Shown here: one piece after another, positions 47,819 to 58,738 of the stretch
Numbering within the stretch: position 1 is the stretch's first letter
Layout: every line of letters begins with the position of its first letter
Source of the DNA: Plantactinospora soyae
GTDB taxonomy: Bacteria > Actinomycetota > Actinomycetes > Mycobacteriales > Micromonosporaceae
Direction of reading: 5' to 3'
Length of the DNA: 64,000 nt
Assembly: GCF_014874095.1 (NCBI RefSeq)
Contig: NZ_JADBEB010000001.1
Span: 7,998,001-8,062,000, forward strand
The notes under the pieces: generated by a model
Databases searched by the model: none
Told to the model about the DNA's origin: nothing
Seen by the model: only the letters and a program-made list of their open reading frames with translations
Position numbers and translations under genes: made by a program

Positions 47819-48655
47819 TCAGGGCAGGCGTACGCCGAGCGGCACGACGCCACGGCGTGGTTCGTGCACGGAGATCGGCAGGGTGTCCAGCAGCGCCCAG
47901 TCCCGGCTGATGTCGGCGGCGGTACGGAGCAGCCGGGGCAGGTGGTCCTCGGTCAACTTCTCCACACTGGTCTCCGCCGCGTGCACCGTCACGTTGACGG
48001 CGGCCACGACCTTGCCGTCGCCGTTGCGTACCCCGGTGGCGACCGATCGGATGCCGGGGGCAAGGTCCTGGTCGGCCAGCGCCCACCCCCGGGCCCGGAC
48101 CTCGCGCAACGTCCGGTCGAGTTCGTCGCGCTCCGGCTGCCACCACGGAGTGATCCCGGATCGGGTCGGCTCGGCCAGCACGGCGGTGAGTTCGGCCTGG
48201 TCGAGCGCGGCCAGCAGGATCTTGCCCATCGACGTGGCGGCAGCCGGGAATCGCGTGCCGACGGTGACCGCCAGCGTGACGATCTTCGGCACCGCGACCC
48301 GGGCGACATAGACGATGTCGTTGCCGTCGAGCTGGGCCATCGAGGACGACTCGTTGGTCTGGTCGACGAGGCGACGCATGTGCGGCTCGGCGATCTCCCA
48401 CATGTTCAACGAGTTGATGTAACTCATCCCCAGTTCCAGCACCCGTGGGGTGAGCGCGAAGCCCCGGTCGGCGGAGCGGACGTAACCGAGTTCGTCGAGG
48501 GTGAGCAGGATCCGCCGGACGGTCGGGCGGGCCAGGCCGGTCGCGGCGGCGATCTCACTGAGCGTGAGCACCGGTCGGCCGGCCCGGAAGCAACGCAGCA
48601 CGTCCAAGCCACGGGCCAGGGCCTCGATGAAGTCAGGTCCCGCCTCGCGCGTCAT
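47819..48655 (-). CDS. IclR-family transcriptional regulator
   Basis: A 278-residue regulator from ATG 48655, 9 bases after GAGGAA. The N-terminal winged helix is FIEALARGLDVLRCF with ALSEIAAATGLARPTVRRILLTL-type residues, and the C-terminal ligand domain contains GSRFPAAATSMGKILLAAL and RGWALADQDLAPGIRSVA. It lies 70 bases downstream of the amidohydrolase gene and near paired CGGAC inverted repeats, which it may bind. IclR proteins usually control aromatic catabolic genes, in keeping with the LigAB genes here. Confidence 0.9.
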   Translation of the reverse strand: MTREAGPDFIEALARGLDVLRCFRAGRPVLTLSEIAAATGLARPTVRRILLTLDELGYVRSADRGFALTPRVLELGMSYINSLNMWEIAEPHMRRLVDQTNESSSMAQLDGNDIVYVARVAVPKIVTLAVTVGTRFPAAATSMGKILLAALDQAELTAVLAEPTRSGITPWWQPERDELDRTLREVRARGWALADQDLAPGIRSVATGVRNGDGKVVAAVNVTVHAAETSVEKLTEDHLPRLLRTAADISRDWALLDTLPISVHEPRRGVVPLGVRLP

Positions 48656-48725
48656 CCCGCCCACTTCCTCTGCCGACGATGCGGCCCACTCCGACCAGGG
48701 CCGACGCGGGCGTACCCGCGTCGAC

Positions 48726-50189
48726 TCAATGCTTCCATTGGGCCGAGCCGGCGTCCCACTCGGTGTACGTGTACGGATTGTCCATCAGGTGCGTTTCCGG
48801 GATGTCCGGGTTCATGCCCCGGGCCCAGGCCTCGTCCCCCATCGAACCGATCAGGTGCTCGATGGTCCGCTCGACCTCGCGCCGGGCCTTGCCGAGGTCG
48901 ATGCCGACCAACCGGTGCGCGTGCTTGACCAGCCGGCCGTTGACCACCACCGAGTGCACGTCACCGCGCTGCGCCTGGAAGGCCACCTGGCCGTACGGGT
49001 GCAGGATCGGGAACATCACCGGAGAGCCGTCGTTCTTGATCAGTACGACGTCCGCCTTCTTCCCCACGGTCAGGCTGCCGACCGTGTCGTCCAGCCCGAG
49101 TGCGCGGCTGCCGCCCCGGGTGGCCCACTCGACCACCTGCTCGGCCCGCAGGTGGCAGTGCGTGATGGTCTCCTGCCGGCCGTGCGCCTCCAGGTGCTCC
49201 CGGGAGCGGTCCGCGCCGAGAGTGCTCCGCATGGCACTGAACAGGTCCCCGCTCCACCAGACGCTGGTGTCCATGGAGAGCGAGACCGGGATGCCGTGGT
49301 GCCGCAGTTGCCAGGTGGGCGGGTAGCCCTGGCCGGCGCTCTGCTCGCTCTCCGTGGAGACCGAGACAGATCCGCCGGTGGCGGCGATCCGGTGGTACGA
49401 GTCCTGGGTGAGGGTGGCCGCGTGTACGTACACGGTCTCCGGGGTCATGAAGCCGTTCTCGTACATCAGCCGGATGCCGTCGTCGTTGGTGGCGCCCCAG
49501 ACACCGGCGTGGGTGGTGACCGGTACGCCCAACTCGCGGGCCACCTCGAAGGCCGCCCGCTCCGGGAAGGCGGGGTCCCCGGTGACGTCGAACGCCATCT
49601 GGAAGCCGAGCATGTCGTCACGGCCGTGCAGGCGCCGCTGAACGAAGTCGCGGAACTCCGGACTGGTCGCCCACTCCCAGGGGCCCTGCTGGATGTTGCC
49701 GTACGCGAGCACGAACCGGCCCGGTACCGCCTCCAGGGCGTCGACGGCGGCGTCGGCGTGCTGCGGTGTCTGGAGTCCGTGCGACCAGTCGACCGTGGTG
49801 GTGACACCGGCGTCGAGCGCCTCGATCGCGCCGAGCAGGTTGCCGGCGTAGATGTCCTCGGGCCGGAAGAGTTTGCCGGATTCGAGGTAGTACCAGACGA
49901 AGTACTGGGTCAGGGTCCAGTCGGCGCCGTACCCGCGCATCGCGGTCTGCCACAGGTGCCGATGGGTGTCGATCATCCCTGGCATCAGGATCCCCCCGGT
50001 GGCGTCGATCTCCAGGGCGTCCGGTGGCGCGGTCAACCCGACGCCGACCTCGGCGATGCGCTCACCGACCACGAGCACGTCGGCGCCGGGCAGCACCGTC
50101 CGGGCGTCGTCCATGGTCAGGACCAGACCGTTGCGGAAAATCACCGGCCGGTCCGACGCGGCCGCCGGACCGTTGTCGATCGTGCTCAT
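48726..50189 (-). CDS. Amidohydrolase-family hydrolase/deaminase
   Basis: A 487-residue metal-dependent hydrolase of the AtzA/TrzN/SsnA group. It has IDTHRHLWQTAMRGY with the first metal pair, VTTHAGVWG for the third His, VYVHAATLTQ for the fourth, and SLSMDTSVWW with the metal Asp. The end motif NPYTYTEWDAGSAQWKH is unusual. It deaminates or dechlorinates ring-substituted substrates in known relatives. Its ATG overlaps the end of a 26-codon repeat mini-ORF. It is divergent from the CoA-transferase, LigAB operon and next to the IclR gene, so it could feed a ring-cleavage pathway. Confidence 0.9.
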   Translation of the reverse strand: MSTIDNGPAAASDRPVIFRNGLVLTMDDARTVLPGADVLVVGERIAEVGVGLTAPPDALEIDATGGILMPGMIDTHRHLWQTAMRGYGADWTLTQYFVWYYLESGKLFRPEDIYAGNLLGAIEALDAGVTTTVDWSHGLQTPQHADAAVDALEAVPGRFVLAYGNIQQGPWEWATSPEFRDFVQRRLHGRDDMLGFQMAFDVTGDPAFPERAAFEVARELGVPVTTHAGVWGATNDDGIRLMYENGFMTPETVYVHAATLTQDSYHRIAATGGSVSVSTESEQSAGQGYPPTWQLRHHGIPVSLSMDTSVWWSGDLFSAMRSTLGADRSREHLEAHGRQETITHCHLRAEQVVEWATRGGSRALGLDDTVGSLTVGKKADVVLIKNDGSPVMFPILHPYGQVAFQAQRGDVHSVVVNGRLVKHAHRLVGIDLGKARREVERTIEHLIGSMGDEAWARGMNPDIPETHLMDNPYTYTEWDAGSAQWKH

Positions 50190-50445
50190 GCCGTCTCCTC
50201 GCTTCGCTCGTCGGCGTCATGAGCCGGCAAACTGGGCTGGCCGATTCGCTCACTGCGCTCGCTCACGCCGTCTCCTCGCTTCGCTCGTCGGCGTCATGAG
50301 CCGAGAAACTGGGCCGACTGATTCGCTCACTGCGCTCGCTCACGCGTCTCCTCGCATCGCTTGTCGGCGTCATGAGCCGAGAAACTGGGCTGGCCGATTC
50401 GCTCACTACGCTCGCTCACGCCGTCTCCTCGCATCGCTTGTCGCC
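50186..50445 (-). repeat. Tandem 77-base repeats encoding chained 26-residue mini-ORFs
   Basis: Three full copies and a partial fourth of a 77-base unit lie directly upstream of the amidohydrolase. On the coding strand each copy begins GTGAGCGAGCGCAG and ends GAGGAGACGGC. Copy 1 (50266-50186) is an open frame of 26 codons plus stop whose TGA overlaps the amidohydrolase ATG; copy 2 (50343-50263) is likewise 27 codons and its TGA overlaps the GTG of copy 1. Copy 3 (GTG at 50419) has lost one base and is out of frame. A fourth copy occurs on the other strand at 53558. Confidence 0.85.
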
Positions 50446-50462
50446 GGATGCCGGGGCCGCTA

Positions 50463-50478
50463 GCGGACGGTTGTCCGC
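50463..50478. promoter_or_regulatory. Inverted repeat operator candidate, left copy
   Basis: GCGGAC GGTT GTCCGC is a perfect 6-base dyad with a 4-base centre. It shares 14 of 16 bases with the right copy at 50666 and lies between the divergent amidohydrolase and CoA-transferase genes. IclR is the nearest regulator. Confidence 0.55.
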
Positions 50479-50628
50479 CTGGTGGTCAGAGCCTGAGTGG
50501 CGAAATTGTGAGCCGGACCACGAGGCTTGTCAAGAGGTCGGAGGGCCGGCACTTTCCGAGCCGCACCGACGCCGCTAAGCGCACTACCCACCAGGGCTTT
50601 GCGGCGCCAAGCCGCCGGCACCCGGGCC

Positions 50629-50691
50629 TTGACAGCGGCCGGAACCACGTTCGAAACTGGCGACGGCGGACGCTTGTCCGTTATGCGGACA
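50629..50691 (+). promoter_or_regulatory. Promoter and right operator cluster of the CoA-transferase/LigAB operon
   Basis: TTGACA at 50629-50634 is a consensus -35, with a CGAAAC-like -10 17 bases on. Downstream, GCGGAC GCTT GTCCGT (50666-50681) repeats the left operator and a further CGGACA half follows at 50686-50691, so GTCCG TTATG CGGAC is a second overlapping dyad. The gene's ATG is at 50705. Confidence 0.5.
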
Positions 50692-50704
50692 CGGAAGGCA
50701 GCGG

Positions 50705-51886
50705 ATGACGACGGAACGGCGGGATGGCGGCGACGGGCCGGACCGGCCACCGGGACCACTGCGGGGCGTACTGGTGGCCGACTTCTCCCGGATCCTGGCC
50801 GGGCCGTACGCCACGATGCTGCTGGCCGACCTCGGCGCCGAAGTGATCAAAGTGGAGGGTCCGGCCGGCGACGACACCCGCACCTGGATGCCACCGGTCC
50901 GCGACGACGTCTCCACCTACTACCTCGGAATCAACCGCAACAAGCGCTCCATCGCGCTCGATCTGCGCGAGGCCGCGGACCTCACGGTCGCCCAGGAACT
51001 GGCCGCCCGCGCCGACGTGCTGATCGAGAACTTCAAGCCCGGCGGCCTGCGCCGGTTCGGGCTGGATTACGAGTCCGTGGCGACCGGCAATCCGGGCATC
51101 GTCTACACCTCGATCAGCGGCTTCGGCACCGGCGCCGGGGCGTCGATGCCCGGCTACGACCTGATGGTCCAGGCCATCTCCGGCCTGATGAGCCTGACCG
51201 GAGATCCCGACGGCTCGCCCTACCGGGCCGGAATCTCGGTCTTCGACGTGATGGCCGGGATGCACGCGAACATCGGCATCCTCGCCGCGCTGCACCACCG
51301 GGCCACCAGCGGTCAGGGCCAACACGTCGAGGTCAACCTGCTCTCCTCGGCGCTGTCCGGACTCGTCAACCACAGCAGCGGGTACGTGGCCGGTGGCGTG
51401 GTGCCGTACCGGATGGGCAACGCGCATCCGAGCCTGTTCCCGTACGAGCCACTGCCGACCGCCAACGGCGAACTGATCGTGATCGCCGGCAACGACGGAC
51501 AGTTCCGCAAGCTGTGTCAGGTGCTCGGGCTGCCCGAACTGGTCGACGACCCCCGGTTCGGGCGCAACCAGGACCGGACCGCCAACCGCGAACAGTTGCG
51601 ACCGCTGCTGGTCGACCGGCTGCGTACCAGGACCAAGGACGAGTGGTTCCGGGATCTGCTGGCCGCCGGCGTGCCGTGCGCCCCGATCAACACCATCGAC
51701 GGCGGCGTGGCGCTGGCCGAGGAACTGGGCCTGGACCCGGTGGTCACGGTCGGCGAGGGTGCCTCGGCGGTGCCGAGCGTACGCAACCCGATCACCTTCT
51801 CGGCGACCCCGGCCCGGTACGAGTTGCCGCCGCCGGGACTGGACGAACACGGCGAGGAGATCCGCAAGTGGCTGACCGAGAACTGA
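50705..51886 (+). CDS. Family III CoA-transferase (CaiB/BaiF type)
   Basis: A 393-residue enzyme from ATG 50705, with GGAAGG upstream. The N-terminal LVADFSRILAGPYATMLLADL and VEGPAGDDTR are characteristic, and the catalytic Asp is in the region AMPGYDLMVQAISGLM. Family III enzymes transfer CoA between carboxylic acids (often succinyl-CoA to a substrate acid). The last 19 bases overlap the following citryl-CoA lyase-like gene. Context suggests it activates a product of ring cleavage. Confidence 0.92.
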   Translation: MTTERRDGGDGPDRPPGPLRGVLVADFSRILAGPYATMLLADLGAEVIKVEGPAGDDTRTWMPPVRDDVSTYYLGINRNKRSIALDLREAADLTVAQELAARADVLIENFKPGGLRRFGLDYESVATGNPGIVYTSISGFGTGAGASMPGYDLMVQAISGLMSLTGDPDGSPYRAGISVFDVMAGMHANIGILAALHHRATSGQGQHVEVNLLSSALSGLVNHSSGYVAGGVVPYRMGNAHPSLFPYEPLPTANGELIVIAGNDGQFRKLCQVLGLPELVDDPRFGRNQDRTANREQLRPLLVDRLRTRTKDEWFRDLLAAGVPCAPINTIDGGVALAEELGLDPVVTVGEGASAVPSVRNPITFSATPARYELPPPGLDEHGEEIRKWLTEN

Positions 51887-52665
51887 GCTTCCCGACCGCG
51901 ATCGGCACCTCCGACCCGGACCAGATCCGGCTGCTCGGTCAGGATCTCGCCGCCGACCTGATGGGGAAGGTGGGCTTCGGCGAACTGGCGTACTGGCTGG
52001 TCGCCGGGCGCCGACCGACGCCGGGCGAGGTACGGGTCTTCGAGACGGTGCTCGTCGCGCTGGCCGACCACGGCTTCACCCCGACGGCGATCGCCGCCCG
52101 GCTGACCTACCTGAGCGCCCCCGAGTCGCTCCAGGGCGCGCTCGCCGCCGGGCTGCTCGGCGGTGGCTCCCGCTTCCTGGGCGTCACCGAGGACTGCGGC
52201 CGGTTCCTCGCCGACGCCATCGCAGGACTGACCGAACGGCCCACCGACGACGCGGGCTGGGACGAGGTCGCCCGGGCGGTGGTCGGCACGGCCCGCGCCG
52301 ACCGACGGCTGATCCCCGGCCTCGGGCACCCGGTGCACAAGGTCGGGGACCCGCGTACCCCGGTACTGATCCGGATCGCCGACGAGGAGGGGCTGCGCGG
52401 CCCGCACCTGCGGCTGTTCGAGGCGATCGGCCGGGTACATCCGGCGATCCTGGGCCGTACCCTGCCGCTCAACGGCGCCGGGGTGTGCGGGGCCGCGCTG
52501 GCCGACCTCGGGCTTCCGGTGGAACTGCTGCGCGGGTTCGCGCTACTGGCGCGGGCGGCGGGACTGCTGGGTCACCTGGCCGAGGAACGCCGCAATCCGA
52601 TCGGGATGGACGTCTACCGGACCGTCGACCGCAACACCCGCTACCTACCGCCGGATGGTTCTTGA
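51868..52665 (+). CDS. Citryl-CoA lyase-like citrate-synthase-superfamily protein
   Basis: A 265-residue protein from GTG 51868, overlapping the CoA-transferase by 19 bases. It has the citrate synthase-type His in LIPGLGHPVHKVGDPRTPVL and the C-terminal LLGHLAEERRNPIGMDVYR with an Asp or Glu replacing part of the citrate synthase set. It is shorter than citrate synthase (about 430) and matches the compact citryl-CoA lyase type (about 260). The likely reaction is cleavage or synthesis of a citryl-CoA-like tertiary alcohol to acetyl-CoA plus an oxo acid. Confidence 0.85.
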   Translation: MADRELSFPTAIGTSDPDQIRLLGQDLAADLMGKVGFGELAYWLVAGRRPTPGEVRVFETVLVALADHGFTPTAIAARLTYLSAPESLQGALAAGLLGGGSRFLGVTEDCGRFLADAIAGLTERPTDDAGWDEVARAVVGTARADRRLIPGLGHPVHKVGDPRTPVLIRIADEEGLRGPHLRLFEAIGRVHPAILGRTLPLNGAGVCGAALADLGLPVELLRGFALLARAAGLLGHLAEERRNPIGMDVYRTVDRNTRYLPPDGS

Positions 52666-52694
52666 CCTTTTGACCCCCTGAGAAAGGAGCCGCC

Positions 52695-53561
52695 GTGGCC
52701 ACCGTCGTCGCGGTCATCGCCTCCACCCACCACCCCTTTTACTACCGGGCGAGCACCGCGACCGGCGAGGACCGGCCGCCGTTCGCGGACGAGTGGGTAC
52801 GCAAGATCCTGGCGTTCCGGGAGACTCTCACCCGGGCCAACCCGGACGTGCTGGTGATGGTCGGCTCCGATCACTTCCACCAACTGTGGCTGGACAACAT
52901 GCCCCAGTTCCTGATCGGAAAGGCCCCGTTCTACGACGCGAACTGGTACAACGAGGAACGCGAGTTCGGCCTGCCGAGAATGCTGCTACGCGGCCAGGAG
53001 GAGCTGTCCGGGCACCTGCTGCGCGAGGGTCTCGACGCCGGCTTCGACCTGGCCTTCAGCAACGAGCTGCGGATCGACCACAGCATCACCTGCCCGATCA
53101 TCACGCTGCGCCCCGAGGCAGACCTGCCGATCGTGCCGATCTACACCAACATCTTCGCGCCGCCGCTGCCCCAGCCGAAACGTTTCGTACAGCTCGGCCG
53201 GACGATCCGCGAGCTTGTCGAGTCCTGGCCCAGCCACCTGCGGGTGGCCATCATCGGCACCGGTCACCTGTCGCTGGAACTGGGCGGCCCTCGCCAGTTC
53301 GGCCCACACGGGCCGGACCCGGAGTTCGACCGGAAGGCGGTGGAGTGGATCGCCACCGGTGACCTCGACCGCTGCCTGGCGGAGGTGACCCTGGACAGCC
53401 TGCACGCGCCGGGCAACGCCACCCACGGCTTCATGGACTTCATGCTGATGATGGGCGTCGCCGGAGCCGGCGCCAAGGCCGACCACGTGGACACCCTCGA
53501 CCTGTTCCACACCATGGAGGCCTACTTCACCTGGTACCCGAACGGAGCCCTGGCGGCATGA
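52695..53561 (+). CDS. ligB: LigB-like extradiol ring-cleavage dioxygenase, catalytic subunit
   Basis: A 288-residue type II (class III) extradiol dioxygenase, GTG 52695 after AAAGGAG. Iron ligands are visible as His in IASTHHPFYY and His in GSDHFHQLW, with a Glu further on, and FGLPRMLLRG lies between. LigB with LigA opens protocatechuate- or gallate-type rings between C4 and C5. Its stop overlaps the start of a 26-codon repeat mini-ORF that leads to ligA. Confidence 0.88.
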   Translation: MATVVAVIASTHHPFYYRASTATGEDRPPFADEWVRKILAFRETLTRANPDVLVMVGSDHFHQLWLDNMPQFLIGKAPFYDANWYNEEREFGLPRMLLRGQEELSGHLLREGLDAGFDLAFSNELRIDHSITCPIITLRPEADLPIVPIYTNIFAPPLPQPKRFVQLGRTIRELVESWPSHLRVAIIGTGHLSLELGGPRQFGPHGPDPEFDRKAVEWIATGDLDRCLAEVTLDSLHAPGNATHGFMDFMLMMGVAGAGAKADHVDTLDLFHTMEAYFTWYPNGALAA

Positions 53562-53638
53562 GCGAGCGCAGCGAGCGAATCAGCCAGCCCAGTTTGCCGG
53601 CTCATGACGCCGACGAGCGAAGCGAGGAGACGGCATGA
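53558..53638 (+). repeat. Mini-ORF repeat coupling ligB to ligA
   Basis: The repeat unit here is one 81-base open frame: its ATG overlaps the ligB stop (ATGA) and its TGA overlaps the ligA ATG (GCATGA). It encodes MSERSERI... ending DADERSEETA. It is the plus-strand counterpart of the repeats upstream of the amidohydrolase. Confidence 0.75.
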
Positions 53639-53997
53639 GCAAATACTTGGTGGACAAGTTCCTCTACACCGTCGACCGCGACGCCGAACTGGTCGAACGG
53701 TACCGGGACGACCCGCGCGGCACCGTCGCCTGGTGGGAGGCGGAACGCGCCAACGCGGTGCTCAACTGCCACACCGGCGAGGCGAGCACCTGGCTGCGCT
53801 TCACCGACGCCGAGCGGGAGGCGTTGGCCGAGCACGACTACGTCGCGCTCTTCGGGCTCGGCGCACACCCGTTCCTCACCCTGACCCTCTTCATCGCGAT
53901 GTTCGAGCGGGACCACACCGAGCCACTCGGCTTCCAGAAGCAGTACGCGGTGCGGCTGGCCCACTTCGACCTGCCGTACCCGGACATCGCCACCTGA
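53635..53997 (+). CDS. ligA: LigA-like small subunit of extradiol dioxygenase
   Basis: A 120-residue protein from ATG 53635. It has the LigA features KYLVDKFLYTVDRDAELVERY near the N-terminus and FGLGAHPFLTLTLFIAMFERD in the middle. It is the partner of LigB, which supplies the iron site; together they form the ring-cleavage enzyme. The substrate within the protocatechuate/gallate group is not determined. Next to it the quinone oxidoreductase gene starts at TGATG. Confidence 0.85.
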   Translation: MSKYLVDKFLYTVDRDAELVERYRDDPRGTVAWWEAERANAVLNCHTGEASTWLRFTDAEREALAEHDYVALFGLGAHPFLTLTLFIAMFERDHTEPLGFQKQYAVRLAHFDLPYPDIAT

Positions 53998-54977
53998 TGC
54001 GGGCCGCTGTCATCACCGAGTGCGGCCGGCCACCCGGCCTCGTGCACCGGTCCAGCCCGACGGCCGGCGTCGGCGAGGTGGCGGTCTCGGTCACGGCCGC
54101 CCCGATCACCCCGCTCGACGTGCTCTGCGCCTCGGGTACGTCGTACCTCGGCGCCCCGGCGCTCCCGTACGTGCCCGGTGTCCAGGGCGTCGGCGTCCTC
54201 GACGACGGCACGGCCGTCTGGTTTCCCACCGCCGCCGGGATGCGGCCCGGCGACGGCAGCATGGCCGAACGGGTGCTGGTGCCCACCGGCGACATCGTCG
54301 CGTTGCCCGACGGCGTCGACCACCGGCTCGTCGCCGCGTTGGGACTGTCCGCAGTGGCCGCCTGGCAGGCGCTGACCTGGCGGGGCGAGTTGCGCCCCGG
54401 CGAACAGGTACTGGTGCTGGGCGCCGGCGGCGTCGTCGGCCAGGCCGCCGTGCAGATCGCCCGGCTCTGCGGCGCCCGACGGGTGATCGCCGGAGCCCGC
54501 TCGGTCCGGGGCCAGGACCGGGCCCGAGCCCTGGGCGCGGACGCGGTGGTCGCCCTGCCCGACGGCGACGACGTCGACAGCCTGGCCGGCCGGTTCCGGG
54601 ACGCCGCCGACGGGCCGGTCGATCTCGTGCTCGACCCGCTGTTCGGGGTGCCGGCCGCCGCCGCCCTGCGGGCCCTGCGTCCCGGTGGCCGGCTGGTCAA
54701 CCTGGGCAGTTCGGCGGGCGAGACGGCACGCTTCGACTCGGCCACCCTGCGCGGTGGGTCGCTACGGGTGCTGGGCTACACCAACAACGACCTGACCGCC
54801 GGGCAGCGGGCCACCAGCATCGGCGTCATCGCCGGCCACATCCGGGCCGGACGGCTGATGGTCGAACACGAGTCCGTCCCGTTGACCGACGTGGCCGCCG
54901 CCTGGACCCGGCAGGCCGGCGGCACCGCGACCCGACGGATCGTGCTCGTTCCGGGTGACGGGACCAGCCCCGGGTAG
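53997..54977 (+). CDS. Zinc-type/quinone oxidoreductase (MDR family)
   Basis: A 326-residue MDR-family protein; ATG 53997 overlaps the ligA stop (TGATG). The Rossmann motif is VLVLGAGGVVGQAAVQIARL, with AARALGADAVVALP after it. The N-terminal GroES-like part (VSVTAAPITPLDVLCASGT) has no zinc-binding Cys/His set, as in quinone oxidoreductases. It may act as an NADPH-dependent reductase of an unsaturated ring-cleavage intermediate, based only on position. Confidence 0.85.
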   Translation: MRAAVITECGRPPGLVHRSSPTAGVGEVAVSVTAAPITPLDVLCASGTSYLGAPALPYVPGVQGVGVLDDGTAVWFPTAAGMRPGDGSMAERVLVPTGDIVALPDGVDHRLVAALGLSAVAAWQALTWRGELRPGEQVLVLGAGGVVGQAAVQIARLCGARRVIAGARSVRGQDRARALGADAVVALPDGDDVDSLAGRFRDAADGPVDLVLDPLFGVPAAAALRALRPGGRLVNLGSSAGETARFDSATLRGGSLRVLGYTNNDLTAGQRATSIGVIAGHIRAGRLMVEHESVPLTDVAAAWTRQAGGTATRRIVLVPGDGTSPG

Positions 54978-55002: not shown

Positions 55003-56487
55003 CTACGGTGCGGGGACGTCGTCCATCGCCGCCATGACCGTGGCAAGGGGTACGCAGGCGAATCGGACCCGGGCGTCGTTGACTCCGTACGGCAGCCACA
55101 GGGTGCCGGCGTGCACCAGACCGCCACACGAGTAGACGACGTTGGGCACGTACCCGTCCTGCTCGGTGTCGTCCGGAGCGAGCAGCACGCCGGGGAGTTC
55201 GGCGATGACGCGGTCGGGCCGATGCAGGTCGAGCAGGAGGGCGCCGATGGCATAGCGGCGCATCGGACCCACACCGTGGGTGAGCACGAGCCAACCGGCT
55301 TCGGTCTCGATCGGTGACCCGCAGTTGCCGACCTGGATCAGCTCCCAGCCCCGGTGTGGGGCGTGCAGCGGAACCGGGGCTTGCCACTGGCTGTTGTCCT
55401 GGTCCCGGATGGTCAGGCCGATGGTCTCGCCGTCGGAACGGCACAGCGCGAGGTGCTGGCCACCTACCGGGCGTGGGAAGAGGGCGAGGCCCTTGTTGCG
55501 GACGGCCGGCCCGCGCATCGGGGACACCTGGAAGTGCCGGAGGTCGTCACTGCTGAGCATCCGGGCGGCGATCCGCCGGCCGTCGTAGGCGGTGTAGGTC
55601 GCCAGGTAGGCCGATTCGCCGCCGTCGCTCGTGAGCCTGACGAAGCGGGCGTCCTCCATGCCGTTGCTCTCGGCGGCGGTGGCCGGCCACAGGACCCTCT
55701 GCTGGAGTGGAACGTCGGTCGGAAAGGTCACGGCGTAGCTGGCGGCGGTCGTACGACGCAGTTGTTCGAGGGTGCGCCCGGTGGTGGTCCGGGTGAGCAG
55801 GTCGGCGGGGAGGCCACCCAGGGCCCGTTCGAAGGTGTCGTCGTCGAACCGCTCGGGCAGGGATCCCAGCACGGTGGCGGAGACCTCGTTGTCCCAACCC
55901 TCCTCGGCGAGTCCTGCGGCGAGCAGGTCCCGACGGTGCCAGGCGCTCACCCGGTCGCCGGTGTTCAGCGGTCCGGATCGGTCAGCGACCGTGAGATGGT
56001 TGCCGGGTCCGAGTTCCGCGGCGGCGAAGCCGATGGACGACAGGTGCCCCTCCCCGATCTGACGCACGCTGACCGCGACACGTAGCCGACCGGTGCCCAG
56101 ATCGGACTGATCCGGATGCGGCACCATGGACGGGTTGCACAGGGCGGCGGCTTCCACGGCGTACTCGTGGCTGAAGTAGGCGCCGACGAGCAGGCGGGCC
56201 GTGGGTGACAGCTCACCGGTCTGGGTGACCCGGTGGTGGACCAGGTCGTAGTGATGCCGGAAGGTTGCTTCGAGGTCGTGATGCCGGTCGCCGAACCGGT
56301 CCAGGGTTTCCCGGAGCAACTCGCCGGCTTCGTCGGCGTCGAGACTCGCGATGCGTTCGATGATCGCGGAGGCGCGGGTGCGGACCAGGGCGGCGTCCTC
56401 GCCCGGGACGAAGAGCTTGACGATGACCCGCCGCGGATCGGGCGCCAGTGCGAGATCCAGCCGGGTGGCCAGGTCCGTCCCGGTCAT
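55003..56487 (-). CDS. GH130-like mannoside phosphorylase/glycosidase
   Basis: A 494-residue protein with a five-bladed beta-propeller pattern. The family's catalytic Asp lies in SNGMEDARFVRLT, comparable to the GxEDxR motif. RMLSSDDLRHFQVSPMRGPAVRNKG and GNCGSPIETEAGWLVLTHGVG also fit GH130. ATG 56487 overlaps the stop of the neighbouring gene (ATGA). GH130 enzymes phosphorolyse beta-mannosides. The location at the end of an operon with two GT4 enzymes suggests a role in making and breaking a mannose-containing molecule. Confidence 0.8.
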   Translation of the reverse strand: MTGTDLATRLDLALAPDPRRVIVKLFVPGEDAALVRTRASAIIERIASLDADEAGELLRETLDRFGDRHHDLEATFRHHYDLVHHRVTQTGELSPTARLLVGAYFSHEYAVEAAALCNPSMVPHPDQSDLGTGRLRVAVSVRQIGEGHLSSIGFAAAELGPGNHLTVADRSGPLNTGDRVSAWHRRDLLAAGLAEEGWDNEVSATVLGSLPERFDDDTFERALGGLPADLLTRTTTGRTLEQLRRTTAASYAVTFPTDVPLQQRVLWPATAAESNGMEDARFVRLTSDGGESAYLATYTAYDGRRIAARMLSSDDLRHFQVSPMRGPAVRNKGLALFPRPVGGQHLALCRSDGETIGLTIRDQDNSQWQAPVPLHAPHRGWELIQVGNCGSPIETEAGWLVLTHGVGPMRRYAIGALLLDLHRPDRVIAELPGVLLAPDDTEQDGYVPNVVYSCGGLVHAGTLWLPYGVNDARVRFACVPLATVMAAMDDVPAP

Positions 56488-57551
56488 GACCACCGCCGGG
56501 CGTGCTGGAGGGTGGAGATCAGGGCGAGCGTCGACTCCGCACCCTGGTTGAGGTTGGCGCCCGACGGGGTCAGGCCGTCATAGCCGCCGCCGGTCGTGGG
56601 ATCCCACATCGTCGTGCCACCGTCGTTGTCGCCGAGAAACCAGCCGACGGCCTGACGTACCCCGGTACCCCAGGAGGGGTCACCCGTCACGACGGCGGCG
56701 GTGACGCACGCGTCGGCGAGGGCGGCGACCTCGATCGGCTGCTGGTCGTGCCGGGCGCGCGGGGCGTGACGCTGCCAGCCCTCGGCCGGGATGACCGACA
56801 GCACGCCGTCGACGAGTTGGATGTCGCGCAGCCAGGCCAGCATCCGCAGTCCGTCCGCGAGCAGTCGGTCGTCGCCGCGCAGGTGGCCGGCGGCGATGAC
56901 GACCTCGGCGAGCGCCGCGTTGGCGTAGGTCAGCCGCTGGTGCGGCCACGGCCAGTCCGAACTGTCGTCGGGGGCACCGACGGCGACGGCGGCGTCGCGC
57001 AGTAGGTCGGCAGCGGCGGCGTTGTCCGGCTGTCGGCGTAACACCTCGGCCGCGCCGAGGCCGGCGAAGACCATCGCGCGCGGCGCGGGCGATCGCCGGC
57101 CGGCGCCGAGGGTGAAGGCGACCAGCGCCTCATCACGGATCCAGGAGGCGCGGCTACGCGCGGCGGCGGTGCCCAGTCCCCAGAGTGCCCGCCCCCACCA
57201 GTCGCCGACGCCGGGCTCGTCGGTCCAGCGTCGATCGTGGCCGAGCCGGTTGCGGAAGGCCCCGCTGCCGTCCTGGGCGTGGGTGAGGAAGGTCAGGTAG
57301 CACTCCGCGAGCCGCAGCACCCTGCTCGGTGGATCGGGTTCGCGGCAGGTGACGACAAGTCCCCGGGCAACGTCGTCGGTGCAGTACCCGTGCTCGCGAC
57401 GCACGGTGGCATGCCGGGCGTGTTCGAACAGGCCGGTGTCGTCCGTCAGCCGGGCCAGGTGGGCGAAACTCGGGGCGGGCGCGAGGGCCGGAGCCGTGGC
57501 GGAGGCGGGGCTGAGGGTGAGGGCGAGGGCCCGGGATGCGGAGCCGGTCAT
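56484..57551 (-). CDS. Alpha/alpha-toroid-like protein in a glycan operon
   Basis: A 355-residue protein with an N-terminal Ala/Pro stretch and a helical pattern with repeated WGRALWGLG, AVAVGAPDDSS and LNQGAESTLALIS elements that suggests a six-hairpin toroid. ATG 57551 overlaps the preceding stop and its own stop overlaps the GH130 start. There is no signal peptide. It may be a glycosidase-like enzyme or a structural partner; no clear catalytic motif is seen. Confidence 0.65.
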   Translation of the reverse strand: MTGSASRALALTLSPASATAPALAPAPSFAHLARLTDDTGLFEHARHATVRREHGYCTDDVARGLVVTCREPDPPSRVLRLAECYLTFLTHAQDGSGAFRNRLGHDRRWTDEPGVGDWWGRALWGLGTAAARSRASWIRDEALVAFTLGAGRRSPAPRAMVFAGLGAAEVLRRQPDNAAAADLLRDAAVAVGAPDDSSDWPWPHQRLTYANAALAEVVIAAGHLRGDDRLLADGLRMLAWLRDIQLVDGVLSVIPAEGWQRHAPRARHDQQPIEVAALADACVTAAVVTGDPSWGTGVRQAVGWFLGDNDGGTTMWDPTTGGGYDGLTPSGANLNQGAESTLALISTLQHARRWS

Positions 57552-58738
57552 GCCGGCGCCGGCACCACGGCCGGGGCCGCCGGATGCGGATCGGCGGTGT
57601 CGAGCCGTTCCGCGAGCGCATGGTAGCGCGCCGCCACCGCCGGCCACCGCAGCGTCGGAGCCCGGGTACGGCCGACAAGGCTGGCGGCCAGACCCGGTTC
57701 GGTCAGAATCCGCCGTACGGCCGCAGCCAGCGCCGCCGGATCCTGGTGCGGTACGAGCAGACCGGGCCCGTCGGTGAGCACCTCGACGGCGTGCGGGAAG
57801 GGCGTCGCGACGACGGGAACTCCGGCGGCGACCGCCTCGATGAGTACCCCGGAGGTGACCTGCTCCCGGGAGTCGTAGGGCAGGATGACGGCGTCAGCCG
57901 AGCGGATCAGGCGGCCCAGCGCAACCTCGTCGTGGTAGACCGGCTGGTAGTGAACGGCGTCGGCGACGCCGAGGATCGCACCGAGGCGCTCCAGCCCCGT
58001 CCGGTACGCCTCCCCCTGCTGCTCGAACACCTTCGGGTGGGTCCTACCGGCGACGGTGTAGGTGGGGGTCGGGTTGAGCCCACGGAGGCGGGCCAGGGCT
58101 CGTACGGCCCATTCGATTCCCTTGCCAGGTCCGAGTAGTCCCCAGGTGAGCAGATGGGGACGCTGGCGCGGTTCGGCGGGCGTGTCGTCGTGGTCGGCCG
58201 CACCGTGTGGGATGACGGTGACCTTGGCGGCGTCCACGGCGTAGCCGACGAGCAGCCGGTCCCGGGCGGTGTCGGTCATGGTGACGACCGTGCTGGCCGC
58301 GGCGACGAGTTGCTCCAGTACCGCCTTCTGCCCGGCCGTCGGTTGGGCGAGCACGGTGTGCAGGACCACGATGCTGGGCACGGTGAGCCGGCGCAGCAAC
58401 GGCAGGACGTCCTGACCATCGGGTCCGGGGTAGATGCCGTACTCGTGTTGGACGACGGCGACGTCGAAGGTGTCGAGTGCCGCGGCCGCGTCCCGCCAGC
58501 CGGCGACTGTCCGCGCCGACCAGGTGTGCACGACACCGGGTCCGACCGGTCCGCGAGCGCCTGCCTGGCCATCGCCGGGGGCCGCCGGCTCGGCGTGACG
58601 GTCGTCGCTGGCCACGACCCGTACGACGCCACCCGACGCACCGTCGGTGATGAGGTGCGCGGCCAGTGCCGAATTGAAGGTGGCCAGACCGCACTGGGTC
58701 GGTGGATGGGTGCTGAGAAAACCGTAACTGCGGGGCAT
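57548..58738 (-). CDS. Glycosyltransferase family 4
   Basis: A 396-residue GT-B fold protein starting MPRSYGFLSTHPPTQCGLATFNSALAAHL. The C-terminal nucleotide-sugar motif is LIRSADAVILPYDSREQVTSGVLIEAVAAGVPVVATPFPHAVEVL, the EX7E-type element of GT4. It is co-transcribed with the toroid and GH130 genes (4-base overlap). The sugar donor and acceptor are unknown; GH130 suggests mannose. Confidence 0.88.
   Translation of the reverse strand: MPRSYGFLSTHPPTQCGLATFNSALAAHLITDGASGGVVRVVASDDRHAEPAAPGDGQAGARGPVGPGVVHTWSARTVAGWRDAAAALDTFDVAVVQHEYGIYPGPDGQDVLPLLRRLTVPSIVVLHTVLAQPTAGQKAVLEQLVAAASTVVTMTDTARDRLLVGYAVDAAKVTVIPHGAADHDDTPAEPRQRPHLLTWGLLGPGKGIEWAVRALARLRGLNPTPTYTVAGRTHPKVFEQQGEAYRTGLERLGAILGVADAVHYQPVYHDEVALGRLIRSADAVILPYDSREQVTSGVLIEAVAAGVPVVATPFPHAVEVLTDGPGLLVPHQDPAALAAAVRRILTEPGLAASLVGRTRAPTLRWPAVAARYHALAERLDTADPHPAAPAVVPAPA

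Follow-up and report, generated by a model that had tools for sequence, protein, structure and literature searches.

The window analysed here is a stretch of 64,000 nucleotides from the genome of Plantactinospora soyae (C1:7998001-8062000; the genome, of 9.7 Mb, is one contig), and at 47819-54977 it carries genes for an IclR-family regulator, an amidohydrolase, a family III coenzyme A (CoA) transferase, a citryl-CoA-lyase-like protein, a LigB-like protein, a small LigA-like protein and an oxidoreductase. All of these had been proposed from the letters and open reading frames alone, in what is called here the sequence-only reading, and all of them prove to be real. The set that runs from the IclR gene to the LigA gene is a conserved module of distantly related soil, plant and marine bacteria of two phyla, and the evidence supports its description as an operon of ring-cleavage type whose lower half depends on CoA. 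The explanation which fits best, at a probability of roughly one half, is that the module is a self-contained and probably inducible operon for the breakdown of one small acid, aromatic or hydroxy-N-heteroaromatic but neither protocatechuate nor gallate, which would be degraded through ring opening by LigAB, activation with CoA and cleavage of a C-C bond.

The folds involved are known; the combination of genes and the versions of the active sites appear to be new. No description of the gene cluster was found in the literature searched, which agrees with the suggestion of an undescribed pathway, although subscription literature lay mostly outside the search, so that a description may be in print. 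The portions consulted of PMC2864759 (on Cupriavidus CH34) and PMC3333776 (on the Rhizobium rhizosphere) hold nothing useful on the cluster.

Conservation of the module

The association of the LigAB genes with the CoA-transferase and lyase genes was evaluated by genome-neighbourhood comparison, and it holds in two phyla and in different gene orders, which supports this part of the sequence-only reading. Within the window's own taxonomic family, the CoA-transferase, lyase, LigB and LigA genes stand together in all 30 of the best-matching lyase loci (the window's own among them). Across 150 genomes of the family, LigB is present in 38 and the lyase in 40, with both in 38, the lyase only in two, LigB only in none and neither in 110, when LigB is counted at 84% identity or above and the lyase at 66% or above, fragments are counted, and one LigB match at 40% (G005) is removed beforehand. 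This co-occurrence corresponds to a Fisher p of 1.4e-33, uncorrected for relatedness. The amidohydrolase (at least 70% identity) is found in 37 of the 38 LigB-bearing genomes, and lies on another contig in G095 and G121.

In a search of the phylum, 10 of 396 genomes yielded LigB matches with E of 1e-30 or lower: the window's own, one of the same family, seven from other families at 79-89% identity and one at 36%. The full series of amidohydrolase, IclR, CoA-transferase, lyase, LigB and LigA is present in six of the seven out-of-family loci. The locus with the 36% match (L071) contains a CoA-transferase, a PF04909 amidohydrolase and an alcohol dehydrogenase, and shows no match to the window lyase. 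The quinone oxidoreductase (QOR) is seen in loci of the window's own family and is labelled in two further loci (L127 and L144), but none of the seven out-of-family loci carries it; it was therefore dropped as a core gene and is an accessory one.

A wider set of loci was obtained by scanning named genomes with the LigB of Aminobacter as query, and the best 80 of 185 relatives were kept; these are the loci closest to one query rather than a random sample, and they span Rhizobiales, Rhodobacterales and several actinobacteria. At a presence threshold of E 1e-10, LigA occurs in 80/80 of these loci, LigB, LigA, CoA-transferase and lyase together in 71, an IclR relative in 68 and the amidohydrolase in 57. 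The lyase and CoA-transferase genes lie within 3.6 kb of LigB in every one of the 71 full loci. The order of the genes varies between loci with ATP-binding cassette (ABC) importers, loci with tripartite ATP-independent (TRAP) importers and actinobacterial loci, while the set itself is constant. In a plasmid collection the best LigB relative is from Nonomuraea (90%), and the copy of the gene set in Aminobacter MSH1, a strain that had at first suggested a possible connection with dichlorobenzamide degradation, is on plasmid pUSP2. Arthrobacter citreus and Martelella likewise have the cluster.

Accessory genes were surveyed in 85 sister loci (the 80 together with five plasmid loci), their families being checked on representatives. 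They include flavin mononucleotide (FMN) reductases in 33 loci, YCII proteins in 22, flavin adenine dinucleotide (FAD) monooxygenases in seven, LeuD-like proteins in five and methionine-synthase-like proteins in four, as well as S15-type hydrolases; the FAD monooxygenases and FMN reductases are what would be expected for a di- or trihydroxy ring. The methionine-synthase-like protein, which has the MetE catalytic domain, lies in or near the operon at L072, L107, L139 and L145, and L046 has a similar gene; its role is perhaps methyl transfer.

Altered active sites

The LigB comparison was made over 123 distinct sequences (146 rows). His12, His60, Asp128 and His129 are invariant (123/123), and the three histidines are those of motifs 1 to 3 (SHxP, NDH and DHG) in the class III extradiol motif list, as given in the part of PMC8431788 consulted. 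The fourth motif has changed: GHLSL stands in place of GxSH, with GGxSH in 0/146 rows, and the position equivalent to His195 (L194 in the window protein) is Leu in 122 sequences and Asn in one. The position equivalent to Glu242 (G245 in the window protein) is Gly in 122 and Gln in one, so that Glu is found in none. The genome's own two canonical LigB proteins retain both GGxSH and the Glu. Four other residues, His191, Glu87, Arg89 and Glu124, are invariant over the same distinct sequences at positions occupied in gallate dioxygenase by Gly, Gly, Gln and Gly, respectively, and His191 is a new invariant histidine. PMC11926856, in the part consulted, describes the functions of Glu242, His127 and His195 and also the site, made up of three His, in the dioxygenases acting on 3,4-dihydroxyphenylalanine (DOPA). 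The residue adjacent to the Glu242 position, H244, is His in 109 of the 123 sequences and Ala, Gln, Gly or Tyr in 14; the alignment thus leaves a three-His metal site via His244 open for most of the LigB sequences, and His244 was rejected as a universal third ligand because of those 14.

An AlphaFold model of LigB (mean predicted local distance difference test score, pLDDT, 86.6; predicted template-modelling score, pTM, 0.90; residues 197-202 poorly modelled) has LigAB (1bou_B) as its best Foldseek match, at E 1.2e-20 and a template-modelling (TM) score of 0.82. For the small subunit there is no match in the PDB. Its assignment as LigA is based on two points: in all 80 named-genome loci a relative is found no more than 99 bases from LigB, and a GAHP stretch is common to the window protein and the LigA portion of a LigB-LigA fusion encoded in the same genome.

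The lyase has lost a residue which is central to the chemistry suggested by its name. The catalytic Asp is Ala in the window protein (NVDG to NGAG) and, by motif, is absent from all 114 distinct sequences, each of which has Ala or Ser; this count includes L046 and L048, which are loci without LigB, and excludes the paralogue loci L049 to L053. Ala (NGAG) characterizes the actinobacterial group and Ser (NVSG, NVSS, NISS or NISA) the proteobacterial one. In a column test over 79 rows the Asp appears in four, namely 6hxp, the ATP-citrate lyase module and the paralogues of L049 and L051, which have no LigB in the stretch fetched. The other motif residues, H68, H154, D161, R163 and R229, are retained. 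The AlphaFold model (mean pLDDT 92.7, pTM 0.88) has 6hxp as its best fold match (TM 0.82), and on these models LigB and the lyase both look like real members of their folds with changed sites. A tree of the lyases, made by a quick method and with long branches flagged, places the Ser proteins in one supported group and the Ala proteins in another, which also holds the LigB-less rows L046, L048 and L172.

The sequence-only reading had the lyase produce acetyl-CoA by citrate-like cleavage of oxalocitramalate. That claim is disfavoured by the loss of the Asp: in the available part of PMC10115795, the D1026A mutant of human ATP-citrate lyase traps citryl-CoA and forms no acetyl-CoA, and the structure of a D541A mutant of an archaeal enzyme, to go by its title, also contains bound citryl-CoA.

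Lyase relatives also occur in other settings. Those of L046 and L048 (66-71%) lie beside an AMP-dependent ligase in place of the CoA-transferase, and L048 has in addition an HpaB-type hydroxylase and a muconate-cycloisomerase-like protein. The genome of the window has a second citryl-CoA-lyase-like gene (L050, G000:C1:5879823-5898539), 41% identical and with NATG for NVDG, whose neighbours are an ATP-grasp CoA ligase, an aldehyde dehydrogenase and a branched-chain-type importer. On plasmid pBB2 of Cupriavidus necator N-1 (L173, 15563-28285), a citryl-CoA-lyase-like protein stands in one run with an intradiol dioxygenase, a maleylacetate reductase, an amidohydrolase, an AMP-ligase, two YciI proteins and a GMC oxidoreductase, and in Rhodococcus BX2 a lyase of the same family has a Rieske dioxygenase and a VOC protein as neighbours. 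The Cupriavidus and Rhodococcus cases indicate that the joining of CoA activation and a lyase to aromatic breakdown recurs.

The CoA-transferase matches PF02515 over its full length (residues 19-382, E 7.8e-116), with a CaiB/BaiF protein (4ed9), a formyl-CoA transferase (10uh) and SUGCT (9br7) as its best PDB matches and with SUGCT and YfdE among its relatives; against NCBIfam NF052585 it scores 365.5 bits, for a cut-off of 750. The Asp of the YD motif is catalytic in family III CoA-transferases. The window protein has PGYDL, YD is invariant in 37 aligned sequences, and the pattern P[GA]YD matches 98 of 124.

The amidohydrolases were compared after the removal of 5 of 77 rows at 40% identity or less, duplicates being retained. 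Aligned with 3hpa, all 72 sequences keep the HxH motif, the third His and the Asp, and the fourth His is present in all of the strings printed (65 of 73 rows). The Glu of HxxE, found in the deaminase and chlorohydrolase (AtzA-like) subtype, is catalytic in known aminohydrolases, and it occurs in none of the 72. The enzyme may still remove an amino or chloro substituent, as the sequence-only reading had proposed, but it lacks the glutamate that known aminohydrolases have in HxxE.

Substrate, proposed route and competing explanations

When the whole genome was searched for aldolases of the RraA-like kind, for intradiol dioxygenases and for PF04909 proteins, five RraA-like places were found, none inside the window. 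The window contains no match to an RraA-type aldolase or to PF04909, both of which occur elsewhere, and the sequence-only reading was to that extent correct that the usual aldolase is missing from the locus; PIG-L proteins were not searched for in the window. GalB-like hydratases belong to the PIG-L family. One RraA-like segment (C1:6156792-6157229) scores 253.6 against NCBIfam PRK09262, 4-carboxy-4-hydroxy-2-oxoadipate aldolase, for a cut-off of 179, and it adjoins a PIG-L protein, with which it forms a candidate pair at C1:6155971-6157229. About 10 kb from it is a Rieske protein with a vanillate-demethylase domain (VanA-type) and about 14 kb from it the LigB-LigA fusion, which has canonical motifs; at spacings of 10-14 kb these genes make up a candidate unit only. 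A second and compact set at C1:131401-139269 (within L167, C1:128000-146000) comprises three RraA-like proteins, a canonical LigB, a PF04909 protein, an FAD monooxygenase, a cupin and an FAA hydrolase. One of its RraA-like proteins exceeds the PRK09262 cut-off (189.4), the aldolase and PF04909 candidates lying at C1:135000-139269. Neither aldolase candidate reaches the stricter cut-off of TIGR02798 (LigK). An intradiol dioxygenase pair is encoded at C1:7627974-7629153.

Given these separate sets of canonical LigB and aldolase, a further lower route for protocatechuate or gallate is probably not needed, and a substrate other than these two acids is more likely for the operon. The proposal that the locus supplies the lower half of the protocatechuate or gallate 4,5 route is therefore not supported, since the genome has other genes for that route. 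The sequence-only reading had itself named the presence of the usual aldolase and hydratase elsewhere in the genome, co-regulated with ligAB, as evidence that would count against it, and such evidence is found in part, as aldolase candidates accompanied by canonical LigB in the two sets.

The favoured route, in which LigAB ring opening is followed by CoA activation and C-C cleavage, would begin with uptake of the acid, which the IclR protein would sense. The amidohydrolase might prepare the ring, by bringing in a hydroxyl in place of a substituent, or might instead hydrolyse the opened product. The divergent LigAB, with a rebuilt metal site, would open the ring, as its fold and partial site suggest, and the quinone reductase could keep an easily oxidised diol or triol reduced. 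To judge from its relatives, the family III CoA-transferase would move CoA, probably from succinyl-CoA, onto a branched hydroxy-di- or tricarboxylate. The citryl-CoA-lyase-like protein would then break a C-C bond of the thioester without the usual Asp as acid/base, yielding a small CoA-bound unit and an oxo-acid.

Several observations weigh against this interpretation. In the phylum search, the seventh out-of-family locus (L068) has LigB and LigA only; its contig ends 2.2 kb upstream of LigB, and this stretch, in which the lyase would be expected, contains none. Nine of the 80 named-genome loci lack both the lyase and the CoA-transferase: two of these (L088 and L104) are near contig ends, L093 has full flanks, L095 has about 9-10 kb on each side, and the remaining five (L134, L137, L149, L154 and L155) present a different context. 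The amidohydrolase is absent from 23 of the 80 loci. LigB is without two residues important for catalysis in its superfamily, which means that ring cleavage is not certain, and the lyase is without the Asp that ATP-citrate lyase requires for acetyl-CoA formation. The loss of this Asp is, moreover, not special to the module but wider, since the residue is also absent from 9 of 11 lyase relatives from loci without LigB in the column test. Finally, no hydratase for the beta-hydroxy acid that is needed is conserved in the module, the LeuD-like protein being present in only 5 of the 85 loci.

Some of the lyase-less loci possibly reflect a second use of this LigB subfamily. The five in a different context, together with L158, have LigB and LigA of the same subfamily and no lyase, and contain variously a cytochrome P450, a histidine kinase with a response regulator, a MauG-type peroxidase, or FAH and alpha/beta hydrolases. 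As for the loci without the amidohydrolase, six of the 23 (L108, L109, L119, L128, L130 and L143) have genes for FAD monooxygenases or S15 hydrolases, which no more than hints at a role in preparing or trimming the ring substrate; as replacements for the amidohydrolase they make a weak case, because only six loci are concerned and because L099 and L152 have both amidohydrolase and monooxygenase.

Among the competing explanations, the one that survives best, although it is unlikely, is that the CoA-transferase and lyase have as their substrate a side chain or an upper-pathway acid rather than the product of ring cleavage, or that the "lyase" is some other CoA-ester enzyme, such as a hydratase, decarboxylase or thioesterase. 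The replacement of its catalytic Asp by Ala or Ser in all 114 distinct sequences speaks for this explanation, and the LigB-less lyase relatives adjoin very different upper-pathway genes; the retained fold and the five retained motif residues speak for a lyase, however, and its adjacency to LigB is strict where both occur.

Rather less probable is the possibility that the amidohydrolase is itself the ring-cleaving dioxygenase, acting on a hydroxypyridine, with the LigB-like pair serving a different or supporting step. The precedent is KpiC (GenBank MT469879), a PF01979 protein which, according to the portion of PMC7356986 consulted, opens 3,4-dihydroxypyridine with the addition of two oxygen atoms; it implies that the amidohydrolase may be an oxygenase and makes hydroxypyridines candidate substrates. 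Retention in all 72 amidohydrolases of the metal ligands examined, with loss of the HxxE glutamate, is compatible with such a role, and a three-locus gene cluster includes an NMT1/THI5-type binding protein. This explanation does not account for the 23 loci which have LigB and LigA without the amidohydrolase, and the KpiC cluster, as far as the same source describes it, has no CoA-transferase or lyase.

Slightly less probable again is the route of the sequence-only reading, in which LigAB opens protocatechuate or gallate to give 4-carboxy-4-hydroxy-2-oxoadipate, which is activated by the CoA-transferase and split to acetyl-CoA and oxalopyruvate. It is chemically neat, the intermediate being citrate-like, and it suits both the fold of the lyase and the hydroxymethylglutarate-type relatives (by name) of the CoA-transferase. 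It would nevertheless duplicate the standard-route aldolases and canonical LigB encoded elsewhere, and it relies on a LigB and a lyase that lack the canonical catalytic residues, in a module without a conserved hydratase; nothing in the cluster, moreover, would seem obviously suited to consume oxalopyruvate. That the locus is simply a usual operon for 4,5-cleavage of protocatechuate or gallate under a wrong annotation, for which only the generic nature of the PF02900 and PF02515 assignments can be cited, is very improbable in view of the canonical proteins elsewhere and the different invariant residues of the window LigB.

A more specific form of the favoured explanation can be offered tentatively. 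The module would define a so far undescribed aerobic pathway for ring cleavage, common to actinobacteria, rhizobia and marine rhodobacters, with a lower half that uses CoA thioesters throughout; in this pathway LigAB, with a new iron site (two His with His191 or a neighbouring carboxylate in place of Glu), may open an N-heteroaromatic or polyhydroxy acid, and the Asp-less lyase would use a different proton transfer to cleave the activated acid. Identification of the substrate would reveal an aromatic compound common to many soil, root and sea bacteria, and would put to the test how an extradiol enzyme can work when the Glu ligand is missing, and a citryl-CoA lyase when the Asp is. The annotations in plasmid records ("extradiol ring-cleavage dioxygenase", "hypothetical protein" and "citryl-CoA lyase") meanwhile assign chemistry which the active sites may not support.

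Layout of the locus and comparison with known systems

The features of the locus are collected in the table below. The IclR gene lies just beyond the span given in the sequence-only reading (48726..54977). The start of the lyase gene, read from the DNA, is the GTG at 51868, which overlaps the CoA-transferase gene.

Table. Features of the ring-cleavage-type locus in window coordinates, with the matches on which each assignment is based
Feature	Position	Strand	Basis and remarks
IclR-family regulator, PcaR/PcaU/PobR-like	47819..48664	-	NCBIfam TIGR02431 277.9 bits, just under cut-off of 284.75; PF01614/PF09339
Amidohydrolase-1 family protein, PRK08204 type, 487 amino acids	48726..50189	-	PF01979; NCBIfam PRK08204 over cut-off
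Family III CoA-transferase, 393 amino acids	50705..51886	+	PF02515
Citryl-CoA-lyase-like protein, citrate synthase fold, 265 amino acids	51868..52665	+	PF00285; NCBIfam PRK06224.1-5 "citryl-CoA lyase" over cut-off
LigB-like protein, 288 amino acids	52695..53561	+	PF02900 over cut-off
Dispersed repeat between ligB and ligA	53559..53634	.	related copies 5' of amidohydrolase gene
LigA-like small subunit, 120 amino acids	53635..53997	+	frame read from DNA; sub-threshold PF07746, E 0.12
QOR/PIG3-type quinone oxidoreductase, 326 amino acids	53997..54977	+	ATG 53997 read from DNA; far under that model's cut-off

The repeat in the gap between ligB and ligA is rich in G and C, and its related copies are at 50193-50450. 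Its 25-base core has 18 matches in the genome with at most two mismatches, against none for a reversed control, and in the closest relative (L005) ligB and ligA abut directly with no repeat between them. On the other strand, at 55003-58738, are glycoside hydrolase 130-like and glycosyltransferase genes, which lie outside the module.

The systems with which the module can be compared each share one of its components. Protocatechuate 4,5-dioxygenase (LigAB) and the gallate dioxygenases DesB/GalA resemble the window pair in fold (TM 0.82 to 1bou and 3wra), in the pairing of small and large subunits, and in H12, H60 and H129, but the window LigB has no GxSH motif, has Gly for Glu242, shows the new invariant residues H191, E87, R89 and E124, and is only 23-26% identical in the ten best Foldseek rows. 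The 4,5-DOPA extradiol dioxygenases (DOD; BvDOD and YgiD) have in common with it a third metal ligand which is not Glu, their three-His site (as set out in the part of PMC11926856 seen) finding a counterpart in the adjacent His (H244) of most window-type sequences, while they retain as His175 the His of the GxSH position that the window LigB has lost, and they give a weaker fold match (8in2, TM 0.69). KpiC belongs to PF01979, as does the window amidohydrolase, and also functions in a ring-opening context, but its gene set, compared by description rather than by sequence from the partial text of its source, is unlike that of the window. The succinyl-CoA:dicarboxylate CoA-transferases (SUGCT, YfdE and mesaconate types) are among the top-scoring named families for the window CoA-transferase, which nonetheless falls far under every NCBIfam cut-off, so that by these models its substrate is not one of theirs. 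Lastly, the citryl-CoA lyase of Hydrogenobacter (6hxp), which is the best PDB match of the window lyase by sequence as well as by fold, and the ATP-citrate lyase module share with it the citrate-synthase fold and the size of a lyase module, and differ from its group in the catalytic Asp (NVDG), in place of which that group has Ala or Ser.

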